The position numbers and the translations under genes are program-made. Of a stretch of DNA of 32,032 bases, positions 38-7,584 are shown in pieces (within the stretch, counting starts at the first letter, position 1; every line of letters begins with the position of its first letter). The notes under the pieces were generated by a model. It was not told where the DNA came from. It ran no database searches and saw nothing but the letters and a program-made list of their open reading frames with translations. The stretch is from IMG/VR virus record IMGVR_UViG_3300027736_000150, positions 1-32,032 of that record; one strand, given 5' to 3'. This DNA comes from a virus.

Positions 38-126
38 CACATTCTCCAAAAATAGAGGGCGAAGGGAAAGAACAGCAGCCCAGCGAAAACAAGGGCTTGG
101 AATAGGTCATTTAAAAACGTTTTCAT
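37..126 (-). CDS. 29-residue single-span membrane peptide
   Basis: A 29-codon reading frame starts with ATGA overlap of the stop of the gp88-like gene. It has AAGG seven bases before its ATG and ends by overlapping the next start. The product reads MKTFLNDLF followed by a hydrophobic stretch rich in Leu, Phe, Val and Ala (about residues 9-26) and ends WRM, so it looks like one short transmembrane helix with a basic C-terminus. Very small phage membrane peptides may be holin-like, superinfection-related or regulatory; the sequence does not say which. The case for it being real rests on both overlaps and the two ribosome binding sites, not on homology. Confidence 0.5.
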   Translation of the reverse strand: MKTFLNDLFQALVFAGLLFFPFALYFWRM

Positions 127-779
127 TGTTGTGCCTTGATAGAGATTACTTTCATCATTTTGCGCCCGTGCGCTGGATAGCAAATTAAATCGATCGATTT
201 ATTCCAGCAAGCCCTACAGCCACTGCATTTGCCATCGTTCTCATATGCTTGGCAAAGGGATGCACCAGGGAATGCCTGGAATGTCGCTGCATCTGGCCCT
301 ATAACGCTACCATGCAATCCAGGCGTAAATGATCCATCAATGGAATCAGCACTAAAACGAACTGAAACATTTTCTAATTGTTTCATTTGGTCGAATACCA
401 TGCGAAATTTGGGGAATTTATGCATCCTTGTGGGCAACCAATGTTTGCACCAAGGTGTGCGCTGCATAATCTCGAGCACTTTTTCAGCCAGTGCCAGGGA
501 ATATAGGTCCCCACTATCCAGCCAGCGAAAATAACGATCGGTTTCCAGTGCTGCAACCATATCGTCAACCCATTCCACACGCTGCCAATCTTGTTTGTTT
601 TCGGCCCTTGGGGCTTTCACGTTTGGATAGTTGTAGTTTCCAGTAGTAGCGTAACAACCTTTGCAAGCATCTACTAGCACACCAGGGCTTTCAATTGAAC
701 CGGGGCACGTTTCAATGGCTTGCAAGGACCACGAACGGATTCCATCTAATTTAGATGTAACGGAAATACGTATTGACAT
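123..779 (-). CDS. Gp88-like cysteine-rich phage protein
   Basis: This 218-residue protein resembles the phage 'Gene product 88' family known from mycobacteriophages and many environmental phages; its biochemical role is not known to me. Cysteines form two groups: C25, C39 and C42 in an ACKGCYA context near the N-terminus, and C176, C185, C188, C191 and C200 around GKCSGCRACW near the C-terminus. Such clusters suggest metal or Fe-S binding, which is inference. An upstream in-frame ATG at 818 exists, but ATG at 779 is preceded by CTGGAG at good spacing and gives the conserved-looking start MSIRISVTSK. It is the first gene of the left minus operon, divergent from the late genes, and its stop overlaps the next start (ATGA). 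Confidence 0.72.
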   Translation of the reverse strand: MSIRISVTSKLDGIRSWSLQAIETCPGSIESPGVLVDACKGCYATTGNYNYPNVKAPRAENKQDWQRVEWVDDMVAALETDRYFRWLDSGDLYSLALAEKVLEIMQRTPWCKHWLPTRMHKFPKFRMVFDQMKQLENVSVRFSADSIDGSFTPGLHGSVIGPDAATFQAFPGASLCQAYENDGKCSGCRACWNKSIDLICYPAHGRKMMKVISIKAQQ

Positions 780-889
780 TTGACAATCTCCAGTAGCAGT
801 GCAATAGCGCACACACACAATGTAACGCTAAATAAACGTTTTTAGCATAGGTATAAACCCTAGGTTGTACGACATAAAAGTAATAAGCG

Positions 890-958: not shown

Positions 959-1148
959 CACAACCATAAAACCCTAGTCAATTGGCACTGATAAACGATA
1001 GGGGAATCGGCGCAAACCCCAGCACTTGGGCCGGTGTTTCATTCGAGAGGGTATAGAAATGCCGTAGGGAAGCATAGAGACTAGAGACTCTCACCGGATA
1101 GCTGCGCTCACCGTTCGCTCACGTTAATAAACGCAACAAAACCCCAAA

Positions 1149-1270
1149 GTGATAGGGCTCTCTTGTTCCGACAAATCAGCGGCTTACCCCCTCCCCTCAA
1201 ACGTTTTGCCCCGTACAATCAGCAGGGGGGGTAGGACTGGAATGGCATCAGAAGAGGGGGGCCCTATCAC
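1149..1270. repeat. Nested inverted repeat before the packaging genes
   Basis: Outer arms GTGATAGGGC (1149-1158) and GCCCTATCAC (1261-1270) are exact 10-base inverted copies 102 bases apart. Inside them lies a second inverted pair, TACCCCC (1185-1191) and GGGGGTA (1227-1233). AATCAGC occurs twice in direct orientation (1174-1180 and 1217-1223). The block ends 35 bases before the -10 box of the late promoter candidate. It could be a structured RNA, a protein-binding site for packaging or replication, or a transcriptional silencer; which is unknown. Confidence 0.5.
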
Positions 1271-1282
1271 CCATTCCCAAAA

Positions 1283-1311
1283 TTTCTACAAAAACTTTTT
1301 CAACGTATAAT
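1283..1311 (+). promoter_or_regulatory. Candidate promoter for the rightward structural operon
   Basis: A perfect TATAAT at 1306-1311 has a weak -35 match (TTTCTA, 1283-1288, 17-base spacer) and lies in an A/T-rich stretch. Start of transcription near 1318 would leave an 11-base leader that contains the AAAGGA ribosome binding site of the gene at 1329. The weak -35 would fit dependence on an activator, but that is inference. It is the only convincing plus-strand -10 box before the late genes. Confidence 0.45.
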
Positions 1312-1328: not shown

Positions 1329-1826
1329 ATGGAATGGACATTGGCTCACCCGTTACGGGATGTGGAAGATATCGTAGAGATGGCTGACGAATACTTTGTG
1401 GACACTGGGGGAGTACTCCAGAAGAGCAAAGACTTGTTCCGCAAGAATGTGACTATGGTATCTACCCTACAGTTGTTCGACAGGAGTAAGGAGTTCCTTG
1501 CGGTTTGTCGGGATGAGAAGATGGTGGGGTACTGTTGGTTTGACAGGTACGGATATACGACTTACTCTGCAGAGGAGATATCCAATGCCAAGTTTCACCA
1601 TGTTGACCACAAGCAAAGTCCCAGGGTTAAAATACGTTTGATAAACGAAATGATTGACCAACATATACTATGGGCGTACAGTAACGGTGTGCCGGTTATC
1701 TGTTCAACTAGTATTCGTCCAGAGCATGAGGTATTTATGAAGATCCACAAAAAACGTGGATTTATCGTAAATGGGTCTTATGCCTGGTTACGGACTGAGG
1801 AAGGAATTAAATGCTTGATGAAATAA
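1329..1826 (+). CDS. GNAT-like (N-acetyltransferase fold) protein
   Basis: The 165-residue product follows a GNAT outline: an N-terminal helical part, a strand with FLAVCRDEKMVGYCWF typical of the central sheet, a long helix over the RVKIRLINEMIDQHILWAY region where acetyl-CoA would bind, and a late HKKRGF turn as in GNAT motif B. The canonical Q/RxxGxG/A acetyl-CoA loop is not obvious, so activity is uncertain. A frame upstream to TTG at 1311 exists, but ATG at 1329 has AAGGA six bases before it. It is the first gene of the late operon and overlaps TerS by 16 bases. It may modify a host or virion protein, or be a non-catalytic structural protein of the same fold. Confidence 0.55.
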   Translation: MEWTLAHPLRDVEDIVEMADEYFVDTGGVLQKSKDLFRKNVTMVSTLQLFDRSKEFLAVCRDEKMVGYCWFDRYGYTTYSAEEISNAKFHHVDHKQSPRVKIRLINEMIDQHILWAYSNGVPVICSTSIRPEHEVFMKIHKKRGFIVNGSYAWLRTEEGIKCLMK

Positions 1827-2269
1827 GACCAGAGGGTAGTCATGTATCCTCTGAGGCCAAGAAGGCTGATAGCAGGGCTCGTGCTGCCAAGAAGAAGGCG
1901 GAGAAACGGGCTATGGGCTTGGTTACTGGTAAGGTAGAGCCCAGACAGAGTTTTAACCCTGCTGGACGGCCTAAGTCTATTGTCAACAGGGTGACGGAGT
2001 ATGGTGCGTTGTTTAACCGCCTTAATGACGAACACGTTGCCAAAGGGTTTGCCCCGCTGAAGACGGCAATGGAGGTTTTGATTGAAGCTATGCAATCTGA
2101 CGAACTGGATATTCAGCAGAAATCCAAGATTGCTGAAAAGCTGGCTACCTTTGAATCGTCCAGAGCGCCTATAATTTCCATAGAACACGTTCAGAATATC
2201 AATAAGGAAGAAGAGATTGATGCTGATATGGCTCTGGAAGACTTTATGAATTCACTTAGAAAGGTATAA
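1811..2269 (+). CDS. terS: Putative terminase small subunit
   Basis: A 152-residue protein. The N-terminal 45 residues are very rich in Lys, Arg and Ala and probably bind DNA. A FNPAGRPKSIVNR motif follows, like the F-x-PGxxGRPKGxxN signature of DUF5681 small terminases. The C-terminal half is helical (KTAMEVLIEAMQ, then QQKSKIAEKLATFESSRAP), as expected for oligomerisation and TerL contact. TerS recognises the packaging site and delivers DNA to TerL. Start ATG has AAGGA before it. Unusually, about 1.5 kb of small genes separate it from TerL at 3807. The assignment rests on motif and position; a small basic DNA-binding protein of another kind is the alternative. Confidence 0.6.
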   Translation: MLDEIRPEGSHVSSEAKKADSRARAAKKKAEKRAMGLVTGKVEPRQSFNPAGRPKSIVNRVTEYGALFNRLNDEHVAKGFAPLKTAMEVLIEAMQSDELDIQQKSKIAEKLATFESSRAPIISIEHVQNINKEEEIDADMALEDFMNSLRKV

Positions 2270-3632: not shown

Positions 3633-3820
3633 TGGAAAATATCCATTCAGCCTTTAATGAAAGGCTTTCCTCTCAAGCAGAAGTTTGCGCTCGAAAGAGT
3701 TTGGAATGGTTGCAAAAAGACCTCCAATCTACGCACAAACTTCTGCCAGAGGATGTCTATTATTTGGCCTGTGCAGCGCAAATCTTTCTAGAGATACGAG
3801 ATCGCTATGGCAAAGAGTGA
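3632..3820 (+). CDS. Small hypothetical protein upstream of TerL
   Basis: A 62-residue helical protein, mixed charge, with two Cys (ARKSLEWLQKDLQ; EDVYYLACAAQIFLEIRDRYGKE). The start overlaps the previous stop as TAATG and the end overlaps the TerL start by 14 bases. Translation of the three genes is therefore probably coupled. No family recognised. The tight coupling makes a packaging accessory plausible. Confidence 0.6.
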   Translation: MENIHSAFNERLSSQAEVCARKSLEWLQKDLQSTHKLLPEDVYYLACAAQIFLEIRDRYGKE

Positions 3821-5399
3821 AGCCAGTGATTACATCTTACCGGTCTACAAAAACCGAGCCTTAAAGTATCTGGTTAAACTGGCTGGTGGCAAACAATACA
3901 TCAAGTATTTGGATGCTGACCAACTGCGGTCCATGCATCGTGCCAGGGATAAGATTGCCTATGATATGCAGTTCAATGCTATCAAGTGGTTCAAACCCTT
4001 TGACTACCAAAAGAAGTTTTTTGAAACCGGTGCAAATTATTCCCGCCGTGGAATGATTGCTGCTAACCGTGCCGGTAAAACAATTGCCTCCACCTACGAA
4101 ACTGCTTACCATCTGACCGGCAGATATCCTGATGACTGGAAGGGTAAACGCTGGGACAAGCCAATTATTGCTATGGCGGCAGGTGAATCCTGGGAACAAG
4201 TTGCAAAAACGCTACAGTCCAAACTGCTGGGTTGTGATGATATCAAGCAATCCTATAAGCTAGGTTCTGGGTCTATTCCAAGGGATGCTATTGATGAAAA
4301 ATCCATACGAACGGACGGAGCGAACGTGCTGGCTATTGAAGTCTGGCACATCACTGGGGGAAAGTCCAAACTCTATTTCTCCAACTACACCCAACAAGTC
4401 CGTCACTTGCAGGGTTTTGAACTTGACCTCGTTGTCCTGGACGAACAACCACCAGACGAAACCTTCTCAGAACTTGTTGTCCGGACGGCTGCTAGGGATG
4501 GACAAGTCATATGCTCATTTACCCCGCTTAAAGGACTCTCAGGACTAGTCCGCAAGTTCTGGGACAACGTTGAAGGTTACTGCCATGTACGGGTAACCTG
4601 GGACGATATTCCCTACGAGAACGAATGGGGTGAAGTATTCTTTTCCAAGAAAGAACGAGAGCAATTAGCCCGAGACTTTATGCCTTGGGAAAGGGAATGC
4701 CGTATGAACGGTATACCTTTGGTCGGAAAAGGTGTAGTATTTCCATTGTTAAAATGGCCTACTTACAAATCTACCGACATTAATTTGCGGGAAAACGACA
4801 ATCTGGAACGATTGATATCATTTGACTTGGGGATTAAAAATGACCCTACCGTTATTTCGTTTTTCTTTCGGGACCCTGTGGAACAGATTATCTATTTGCA
4901 CCGACAAGTTACTGTGGATAAGGGAGAAACTCCTGATGAGTATGTCCACTATTTGCTTGACCGTGACTCCAGAAACGTTCCTATTGCTTTGCCCCACGAT
5001 GCTGCTACTGCTGGCAGATATACCTTGACAGAACAATCTGTCCGTGAAGTATTTGAAGACAGTTACAATTTAAACTGTATTGCTGGTGCTATTTTGAACC
5101 CGCCAAATGACCAGGGCAAGGTAACTAACCACAAAGCCTACGGAATAAACGTAATGCGAATGGGTATGGAACGGCAGACTTTTATGATTAACGAGTCCTG
5201 CGTCCAGTTCCTTGACGAGGCCAGAAATTATGCAATTGACGAAAATGGCAAGTTTTCTGATCCAGACGATCACATTGATTCTGCTCGTATTGGTATACTC
5301 GCATTAATTCAAGGTCACGGTGAATCTGTGGTAAGCAGATCAAACAACTTTACCGCCCGTCGATTCGCCCCGCTAGAAGGCAAGGCACAAAGGATTTAA
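3807..5399 (+). CDS. terL: Terminase large subunit (packaging ATPase-nuclease)
   Basis: A 530-residue terminase large subunit, a usual length for the family. It powers DNA translocation through the portal and cuts the concatemer. The Walker A loop is AANRAGKT (residues 85-92), and Walker B is LVVLDEQPPDE (208-218) with the catalytic acid after the LD pair. A C-motif-like SFTP follows at about 237-240. The C-terminal RNase H-like nuclease shows ISFDLGIKND (D340), LPHDAAT (D398) and DPDDHIDSARIG (around D488 and D491), the usual acidic triad. It starts inside the previous gene and ends one base before the portal ATG. The assignment is secure; whether packaging is headful or cos-type cannot be told from this. 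Confidence 0.93.
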   Translation: MAKSEASDYILPVYKNRALKYLVKLAGGKQYIKYLDADQLRSMHRARDKIAYDMQFNAIKWFKPFDYQKKFFETGANYSRRGMIAANRAGKTIASTYETAYHLTGRYPDDWKGKRWDKPIIAMAAGESWEQVAKTLQSKLLGCDDIKQSYKLGSGSIPRDAIDEKSIRTDGANVLAIEVWHITGGKSKLYFSNYTQQVRHLQGFELDLVVLDEQPPDETFSELVVRTAARDGQVICSFTPLKGLSGLVRKFWDNVEGYCHVRVTWDDIPYENEWGEVFFSKKEREQLARDFMPWERECRMNGIPLVGKGVVFPLLKWPTYKSTDINLRENDNLERLISFDLGIKNDPTVISFFFRDPVEQIIYLHRQVTVDKGETPDEYVHYLLDRDSRNVPIALPHDAATAGRYTLTEQSVREVFEDSYNLNCIAGAILNPPNDQGKVTNHKAYGINVMRMGMERQTFMINESCVQFLDEARNYAIDENGKFSDPDDHIDSARIGILALIQGHGESVVSRSNNFTARRFAPLEGKAQRI

Positions 5400-5400
5400 T

Positions 5401-7584
5401 ATGCTGGACAAACAAAACCTCGTTGTTGAAAGCCTAGAAAGCCCAACGGGTAATCGTGGGATTACAGAGCAAACCGTACATGAGGTTTATGTCAAGATGG
5501 TCGATTATCTTCGACTGACACAATCCAAAAATACCTACAACCGTTTTAGCGACTACCATTATCTCAACATTCCGGTATCAAACTCTACTGAACCGGTACG
5601 AGGGATTGATTACATTCACCCAGTAGTAACCCCTGGCATTGATTATGCAACTGCCATTATTACTAAATGTTTGATGCCCAACGGAAAAGTAAACTTTGAG
5701 TTTGAACGGTTTACAGAAAACGACAGTGACCAGGCTCGACAAGCCACCGAGATGGTCAAATATATGATTAACAGCAAGAATGATTCATATCAAATCATTC
5801 GTGACTGGGCTCAAGATGCCCTGCTGCATAAAAACGGCATTGTGATGCTTTCCCCTGTGCGTGAGCCTATCACGCAGTACAAGGAAGTTGAAGGCACTAA
5901 AGATCAATTGCGTACATTTGAGACACTTGCCGGTGAAAAGGGTCTTACTGCCAAGCGTCAAAATATGCGTAAGATTGACGTTGACTTGCATGGTGCAATG
6001 CAGGAAATGATGTCTCCTGACGAACAAGAATCTCAACAAATGGTTGAACAAGAAGACCAGAGTGATGAGGTTTCAGAAGCAATTCGTAAAAATACTATTT
6101 ACCGTGCCAAGTACAAGCTGACTGGTTACTCAACCAACATCAAAATTAAGCACGTTGCTCAACATTATTTTGTCTGTAATCCGACAATCTCCACAATCCA
6201 AGATCAGGACTTTGTTGGTTTTTACGATCCAATGACGATCCATGAGTGCAAGGCCCAGTTTCCTTTCGTGGATCTCGAGAAATTAGCCGATCACGCTGCC
6301 TACGGACCCGCTGGAGCCTATCAAGCTGGCGCTTTAGAGAACGATCTGGCTCTCCATGCTCGTGACTCTACCCCAGTGCCAGGACAAGGCGTTATTGCAT
6401 CCCAAGGAGCAGACCGGTACAGCCGAGTCATTATGCTGACCACCGCCTGGATTCGCAAGGACGTTGACGGTGATGGCGAGGAAGAGATCATTGAGGCTTG
6501 CTTCTCTGGTTCTTACATCTTGTACGTCAAGGAAGTTGATTTTATTCCTTTGGCGAATATGTGTCCCAAGCCTATTGTTGGCAACTTCTTTGGATACTCT
6601 CTGGGTGAGCGCCTGGTTCCGATGCAGGAATACGCTACGGCTATCCGCAGGGCAGAAATGGCTTTTGCCATGCAATCATCTACTCCACGTATCGGTGTCA
6701 ACCCCGAGTTCTTGGATGCCGAGGAAATCCAGCGTGGTGTAAGCGCAATGTTTATCTTGGACCGCAAGTTTGATCCGTCCAAGCACATTTTTGAGTTCCA
6801 GCCAATGCAGGGTAATCTTGCTTACGTCCAGTCCTCTATGGACCGGTTCGATGCTGACAAGATGGCAATGATTGGTATGACCAGCCCTGGTGACGTATTG
6901 AATCCAGAGGTTATGAAGGATGGCAATAGCGGTTATAAGTTGCAACTGGCTATGGGTCCCAATCAACTGATCCAAGATGAGATGGTCAAGAACTGTGCCA
7001 TTGGTCTGCGTGAAGTTATCTACATTATGTGGAAAACTTTGGTTCAGTATTCTGACGATTACAACATCCAGCAATTGGCTAACACCTGCCTACAAGGCCA
7101 GCCTTTTCTAGATGCCAAGTCGGTAGAGAATTTCGAGTTTATTGACCGCAAGATGATTAACATTGATCTGGCGTTGGGCTTTATGTCGGATGAAAACCGC
7201 CTTACCCGCCAGCAAATGATTATCCAGGCACAACAAGGTTTTGCTCAATCCATGATGCAAATTGACCCAAGCGTTCCTGAGTTGTTTGTCAAGGTTCGCC
7301 GTCCGTTTGAGGATACCCTGCGAGTCTTGGGAGTCAAAGACGTTGACGCTTACTTGCCGACAATGGAAGAAGCAACCAAGATGGCTACAGCTAAATCACA
7401 AAAGCCGCCAAGCCCAGAAGAGCAAGAGTTGAAATCTAAGACTGATTTGAACAATGCTCGCACTGGAGAAACCCAGGCCAAGGCTGGTTTGATTGCTGCC
7501 CAGACAAAAGACATAGCTATTGATGACCAATTTACCGCAATGGCGGCAAGGGCAGGAAAGTTAAAGGCCGTTGAAATAGATTAA
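5401..7584 (+). CDS. Portal protein (P22-like size)
   Basis: A 727-residue protein, close to the length of the P22 portal. It would form the dodecameric ring at one capsid vertex, through which TerL pumps DNA and to which the adaptor docks. Evidence: position directly after TerL; an early TPGIDYATAIITK helix; an acidic DVDGDGEEEIIEA strand near residue 356; a MCPKPIVGNFFGYSLGERL segment; and a helical C-terminus from about 590 with long Gln/Ala/Lys stretches that resembles a portal barrel. A Glu/Gln-rich linker (about 200-235) may be a flexible wing. No missing parts. The next gene follows after eight bases with AAGGA. Confidence 0.88.
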   Translation: MLDKQNLVVESLESPTGNRGITEQTVHEVYVKMVDYLRLTQSKNTYNRFSDYHYLNIPVSNSTEPVRGIDYIHPVVTPGIDYATAIITKCLMPNGKVNFEFERFTENDSDQARQATEMVKYMINSKNDSYQIIRDWAQDALLHKNGIVMLSPVREPITQYKEVEGTKDQLRTFETLAGEKGLTAKRQNMRKIDVDLHGAMQEMMSPDEQESQQMVEQEDQSDEVSEAIRKNTIYRAKYKLTGYSTNIKIKHVAQHYFVCNPTISTIQDQDFVGFYDPMTIHECKAQFPFVDLEKLADHAAYGPAGAYQAGALENDLALHARDSTPVPGQGVIASQGADRYSRVIMLTTAWIRKDVDGDGEEEIIEACFSGSYILYVKEVDFIPLANMCPKPIVGNFFGYSLGERLVPMQEYATAIRRAEMAFAMQSSTPRIGVNPEFLDAEEIQRGVSAMFILDRKFDPSKHIFEFQPMQGNLAYVQSSMDRFDADKMAMIGMTSPGDVLNPEVMKDGNSGYKLQLAMGPNQLIQDEMVKNCAIGLREVIYIMWKTLVQYSDDYNIQQLANTCLQGQPFLDAKSVENFEFIDRKMINIDLALGFMSDENRLTRQQMIIQAQQGFAQSMMQIDPSVPELFVKVRRPFEDTLRVLGVKDVDAYLPTMEEATKMATAKSQKPPSPEEQELKSKTDLNNARTGETQAKAGLIAAQTKDIAIDDQFTAMAARAGKLKAVEID

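Follow-up and report, generated by a model that had tools for sequence, protein, structure and literature searches.

Conserved inverted arms preceding the packaging operon in a family of uncultured podovirus-like phages: probable terminase sites at the boundaries of a predicted direct terminal repeat

The DNA analysed here, a virus record of 32,032 bases (the window, that is, the whole stretch), comes from an uncultured phage that resembles podoviruses and whose portal and capsid proteins are of the SU10 type. Two inverted arms upstream of its packaging operon are, on balance, probably terminase cutting sites on either side of a direct terminal repeat of ~110 bp (~1155-1264). In the relatives this conserved inverted pair is essentially single-copy and always lies upstream of the packaging operon. 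According to the proposed mechanism, terminase would cut or nick the concatemer at the left arm, which would yield one genome end, and the other end would result from a cut or nick at the right arm on the opposite strand. Fill-in would then duplicate the stretch between the arms, so that every virion genome would begin and end with the repeat; the small terminase subunit could be loaded at the block of the right arm (GGGGGTAG..CTGGA plus a G-run). Cutting at the motifs, the exact cut bases, fill-in and loading of TerS are all steps that we infer for the family. An earlier note on this DNA had pointed out that the region lies where packaging sites of the cos or pac type are usual; the genome is indeed probably cut here, and cos and pac are less favoured than paired sites bounding a terminal repeat.

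The arms are located between a leftward gp88-type gene and a rightward operon consisting of an ORF, a putative terS, small ORFs, terL and the portal gene (Table 1). By comparison with relatives, the window is probably a fragment of a genome of ~41 kb; the sole close annotated relative in the phage collection is MW202484 (41.8 kb, Manatee Spring). The putative terS product shows a weak match to PHROG 15261, a family of unknown function. The earlier placement of the region immediately upstream of terS is loosely true, yet the first ORF of the operon intervenes.

Table 1. Features of the window around the inverted arms and in the packaging operon (a slash marks a predicted cut).
Feature	Position	Strand	Basis
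gp88-type gene, leftward cluster	123..818	-	Pfam GP88, E 6e-31
Left arm motif CAAAGTGATAGGGCTCTCTT (family consensus AAAGTGATcGGGCCCC)	1145..1164	+	66 of 73 relatives; contig starts of relatives
Predicted left cut, start of repeat	between 1154 and 1155		predicted, GTGATA/GGGC
Predicted direct terminal repeat, ~110 bp	1155..1264		predicted from the bounding inverted arms
Conserved element GGGGGTAGGACTGGA, right part of predicted repeat	1227..1241	+	near-invariant; spacing to the G-run fixed at 14-16 nt
Right arm block GGGGGCCCTATCACCCATTCCCA (family GGGGGCCCACTCMCCCATTCCC)	1257..1279	+	near-invariant in ~70 genomes; one contig start
Predicted right cut	between 1264 and 1265		predicted, GCCC/TATCAC
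Promoter-like A/T-rich tail AAATTTCTACAAAAACTTTTT...TATAAT, joined to right block	1280..1311	+	conserved with the block; by eye
First ORF of rightward operon	1329..1826	+	conserved in relatives; without Pfam or PHROG match
Putative small terminase subunit (terS)	1811..2269	+	label from position and size only; conserved in family
Large terminase subunit (terL)	3807..5399	+	Terminase_6N, E 7e-11; relatives LUZ24, phiEco32, P22
Portal protein, SU10 type	5401..7584	+	Pfam SU10_portal, E 2e-55

The repeat geometry described earlier was recovered in full: exact 10-base arms (GTGATAGGGC, 1149-1158, and GCCCTATCAC, 1261-1270) separated by a spacer of 102 nt, an inner inverted pair (TACCCCC, 1185-1191, and GGGGGTA, 1227-1233) and a direct repeat AATCAGC (1174-1180 and 1217-1223). 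Extended arms (1149-1171 and 1248-1270) are 78% complementary. Taken alone, the exact arms are unremarkable, because the window contains 4 exact inverted 10-mers with loops of at most 150 nt and 4.0 ± 2.3 are found in shuffles, as expected for its size and composition; when only the intergenic region is counted, P = 0.05 for such a pair. The reality of the site rests on its conservation in ~70 relatives and not on the exact repeat.

To establish this conservation we used a family set of ~70 distinct podovirus sequences that contain the region, obtained by TerL and DNA-pattern scans of IMG/VR. Throughout this set there is hardly any change in the right block, which consists of GGGGGTAGSRCTGGA-N(14-16)-GGGGGCCCACTCMCCCATTCCC and then AAATTT..AAAACTTTT; it is single-copy in nearly every genome searched, and wherever flanks are available its orientation and gene context are constant, with the leftward gp88-type cluster on one side and the rightward gene-terS-terL operon on the other. 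The distance from the block to the first gene ranges from ~70 to more than 1,500 nt through inserted ORFs, with the block itself intact, and since this distance varies through inserted sequence, a role as simple leader of the first gene does not fit the block. In 66 of 73 relatives an upstream motif search recovered, at more than the 99% shuffle level, the left motif AAAGTGATcGGGCCCC, inverted with respect to the right arm and 94-270 nt from the right anchor; overall, left motif and right block are 90-270 nt apart. The spacing equivalent to the predicted repeat is 92-267 nt in relatives (median 158), in the range of known repeat lengths. The earlier note had made its reading depend partly on whether relatives keep the arms, and in this respect it held: they do.

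How the two arms vary relative to each other bears on the nature of the site. If they were the stem of a structured RNA or of a DNA cruciform, changes in one arm should be matched in the other. In RNA folding the window's own sequence does form a long hairpin (1140-1280: -57 kcal/mol, z -3.15 on the + strand and 0.04 on the - strand), yet covariation over 66 genomes is near zero, the left arm changing without matching changes in the right arm, and the region has no Rfam match. On average 9.94 of 14 arm pairs form; re-dealing the arms among genomes gives 9.80 (p 0.014), and all 14 pairs form in the window only. As arm changes hardly compensate, the exact match in the window is best seen as the extreme of a loose inverted repeat. 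A structured RNA, which the earlier note had offered as an alternative, was rejected for want of covariation and of an Rfam match. We consider this whole group of readings, including a replication origin built on such a structure, very improbable. The arms look like two DNA recognition sites, and the missing covariation would fit two protein sites. The region had also been called the most structured non-coding stretch, which the folding does not bear out in general; in an RNA fold scan of the window with 140-nt frames and 70-nt steps, which missed framing the arm hairpin, at least 15 other frames reach z -3.6 to -7.4.

Contig ends of relatives point partly, but not uniformly, to the predicted cuts. 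Of eleven linear contigs that begin in the arm region, G012 and G026 start right at the predicted left cut, L033 starts 2 nt later and G047 1 nt from the predicted right cut; among the others, six start within the G-rich part and the last 40 nt before the left arm. We estimate that four or more of the 11 starts would fall near the cuts by chance ~8 times in 10,000 for a region of 240 nt, but the cut position was chosen after G012 had been seen. Some of the ends are perhaps assembly breaks at G/C-runs, because about half of the contigs start inside the G-rich part. A scan through gp88 for contigs that reach the right arm from the left and stop there gave mostly other phage groups and none from the family. 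Three contigs of other gp88-bearing phages (L244, L293 and L312) end ~40-60 nt past a G-rich element of similar kind (GGGGGGGAGGGGGT...), perhaps an end site equivalent to this one.

Contigs starting inside the right block had initially led us to a cos site, with one staggered cut near GGGGGGCCC in this block and with the left motif and GGGGGTAG..CTGGA as terminase binding sites. This would agree with the right block being by far the best conserved element, essentially single-copy and upstream of terS, and with several contigs that start within 50 nt of it. The lead was weakened by ~15 near-full-length contigs that are circular assemblies crossing the right block, which would be expected if the phages had terminal repeats or packaged by headful, less so with a cos site, and by the contig starts at the left arm, which cos does not predict. 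Moreover, where ends have been mapped in phages with kindred terminases, they are terminal repeats, and phage Delta did not uphold the cos claim made for PaP3-type phages (PMC8540360); the 20-base cos of PaP3 was compared with the site and then dropped. The start of contig L207 in the block was discounted, as that contig does not end there. A cos site therefore appears unlikely, and a pac site of the P22 style, with one initiating cut per concatemer, headful cuts after it and permuted genomes, hardly less so. The latter is in line with the circular contigs and with the relatedness of the P22 TerL to that of the window, but the P22 site is short and lies inside the small terminase gene (annotated 4-25 of BK000583) instead of forming an intergenic inverted pair, and headful cutting needs no paired inverted sites.

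The location between divergent gene clusters could alternatively point to a regulatory region, in which the arms would be operators for a phage or host regulator beside a late promoter. Consistent with this, the right arm is followed by a promoter-like tail (AAATTT..AAAACTTTT..TATAAT), relatives have a similar module before the first gene, and Fur-box-like and parS-like sites occur between the arms (see below). The tail at 1280..1311 was recognised by eye and not detected by a sigma-70 scan; it is probably the promoter of the packaging operon. On the other side, the block stays intact at distances of ~70 nt to 1.5 kb from the first gene, and the contig ends at the arms are left unexplained. 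We regard regulation as the main function of the arms as quite improbable, although a regulatory role can coexist with a role in packaging. The module AAATTTTT-N4-AAAACTTTTT-N5-10-TATAAT is found just before the first rightward gene in six genomes (L009, L011, L014, L015, L023 and L027) and is also joined to the right block. Three genomes (L022, L036 and L037) have tRNA-like inserts between the block and the first gene, with an anticodon loop CTGTTAAT that appears tRNA-Asn-like by eye.

The inter-arm spacers of relatives, which correspond to the predicted terminal repeats, contain several kinds of sites. Fur-box-like palindromes AATGAGAATGATTCTCATT (at most 3 mismatches, in block orientation) occur in the spacers of 8 genomes (L049, L060, L012, L054 and L105 among them), and parS-like sites TGTTTCACGTGAAACA (at most 2 mismatches) in those of 3 genomes, L200 (with an exact 16-mer), L094 and L017; neither is found in the remaining sequence of the respective loci. 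By their resemblance to the consensus sequences, these are candidate Fur boxes and candidate parS sites for host ParB. Likewise, ATTGGGGACAGGTCAA is present in the spacers of 3 genomes and absent from the remaining sequence of those loci, and words of CCCCCCTAG occur in the spacers of 14 genomes, with 26 in spacers compared to 3 elsewhere in the loci. Repeated CCCCCCTAG words directly precede the right block in L023, L071, L085, L095 and others. A tentative and rather speculative explanation for these sites is that the terminal repeats carry exchangeable binding sites for host proteins, whereby abundant host proteins might bind the entering genome ends, for protection, segregation or the timing of early transcription.

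Beyond the family, a scan of bacterial genomes for the right block gave 5 matches, the one in Acidovorax lying inside a motA-type flagellar gene; phage genes were found near none of the 5, hence they identify neither a prophage nor a host. At ~865-900 of L203, a (pro)phage locus of Gram-positive type, CTCCCCCATTCCCAAATTTT has an HNH gene on one side and a small terminase-like ORF on the other. This 20-mer match was considered as a shared cos motif and rejected: the rest of the block is absent, ~1 such match is expected by chance according to our estimate, and it is probably a coincidence.

If paired terminase sites bounding a terminal repeat are indeed what the arms represent, genome-end coordinates would become available from sequence only for a common family of uncultured aquatic phages. 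For phages of this terminase group a rule would follow, namely to seek an inverted motif pair upstream of terS, and this can be checked in phages for which reads exist. It would also show that conserved inverted repeats close to terS do not have to be cos sites or RNAs. In addition, the interchangeable Fur-box-like and parS-like sites in the predicted repeats would make the protection and handling of incoming phage DNA testable.

The closest annotated TerL proteins outside the family are those of LUZ24-like phages (31-34% identity), followed by phiEco32-like and P22-like ones. In the TerL tree the family is on its own long branch, outside the LUZ24 (repeats), phiEco32 (repeats) and P22 (headful) groups, and because it nests in none of these the phylogeny does not decide the packaging type. 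Concatemer junctions were rebuilt from the records of LUZ24, tf and phiEco32, whose repeats are 184, 186 and 193 bp long, respectively; both repeat boundaries were compared with each other and significance was determined by shuffling. With a slash at the boundary, LUZ24 has GGGAT/ATTCCCCCC and, reversed, GGAATATC/CCCCC (inverted core P 0.004), tf has GGGAT/ATC and GGATATCC/CCCC (P 0.003), and phiEco32 has AGTGCT/AGCC and GTGCCT/AGCC (P 0.017). T7, a repeat phage with another terminase, showed a weak inverted match (P 0.10). This small test is not clean, because the LUZ24 and tf boundaries also share a long match in direct orientation. The record of phage 7-11 has no end repeat and that of UFV-P2 only a 22-base end overlap, so that neither contributed to the comparison. 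The authors of the tf study measured its ends and put forward GATATCcc as the terminase core at both of them (PMC3517423). In phage Delta, a PaP3-type relative, there is a terminal repeat of 182 bp and no cos, and the terminases of the Delta/PaP3-type group resemble the headful terminase of P22 (PMC8540360).

Among these systems, tf resembles the window in having an inverted core at both boundaries, a repeat in a divergent intergenic region upstream of terS and a related TerL. Its core differs (GATATCC, compared to GTGANNGGGCCCC in the window), its ends were measured whereas those of the window are predicted, and it has no recognised counterpart of the near-invariant right block GGGGGTAGSRCTGGA-N15-GGGGGCCC. 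LUZ24 (Bruynoghevirus) likewise resembles the window in its inverted boundary motif, a C-run lying just inside the left end and a G-run just inside the right end. Its repeat, like that of tf, occupies the place where the arms of the window are found, with divergent early genes on one side and terS on the other. The LUZ24 TerL is ~31% identical, and the repeat predicted for the window is shorter (~110 compared to 184 bp). In phiEco32 (Kuravirus) the inverted boundary core is GTG(C)CT/AGCC and TerL is related, and the Pfam families matched by the portal and capsid proteins of the window take their name from SU10, a phiEco32-like phage, but the phiEco32 genome is 77 kb long, the core is different and the ends are without G/C-runs. 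P22 likewise has a related TerL and differs in its pac site, within the small terminase gene and without paired inverted sites. T7, finally, is similar in having a short direct terminal repeat (160 bp) and dissimilar in its TerL, which was not recovered as a relative, and in its weak boundary match.
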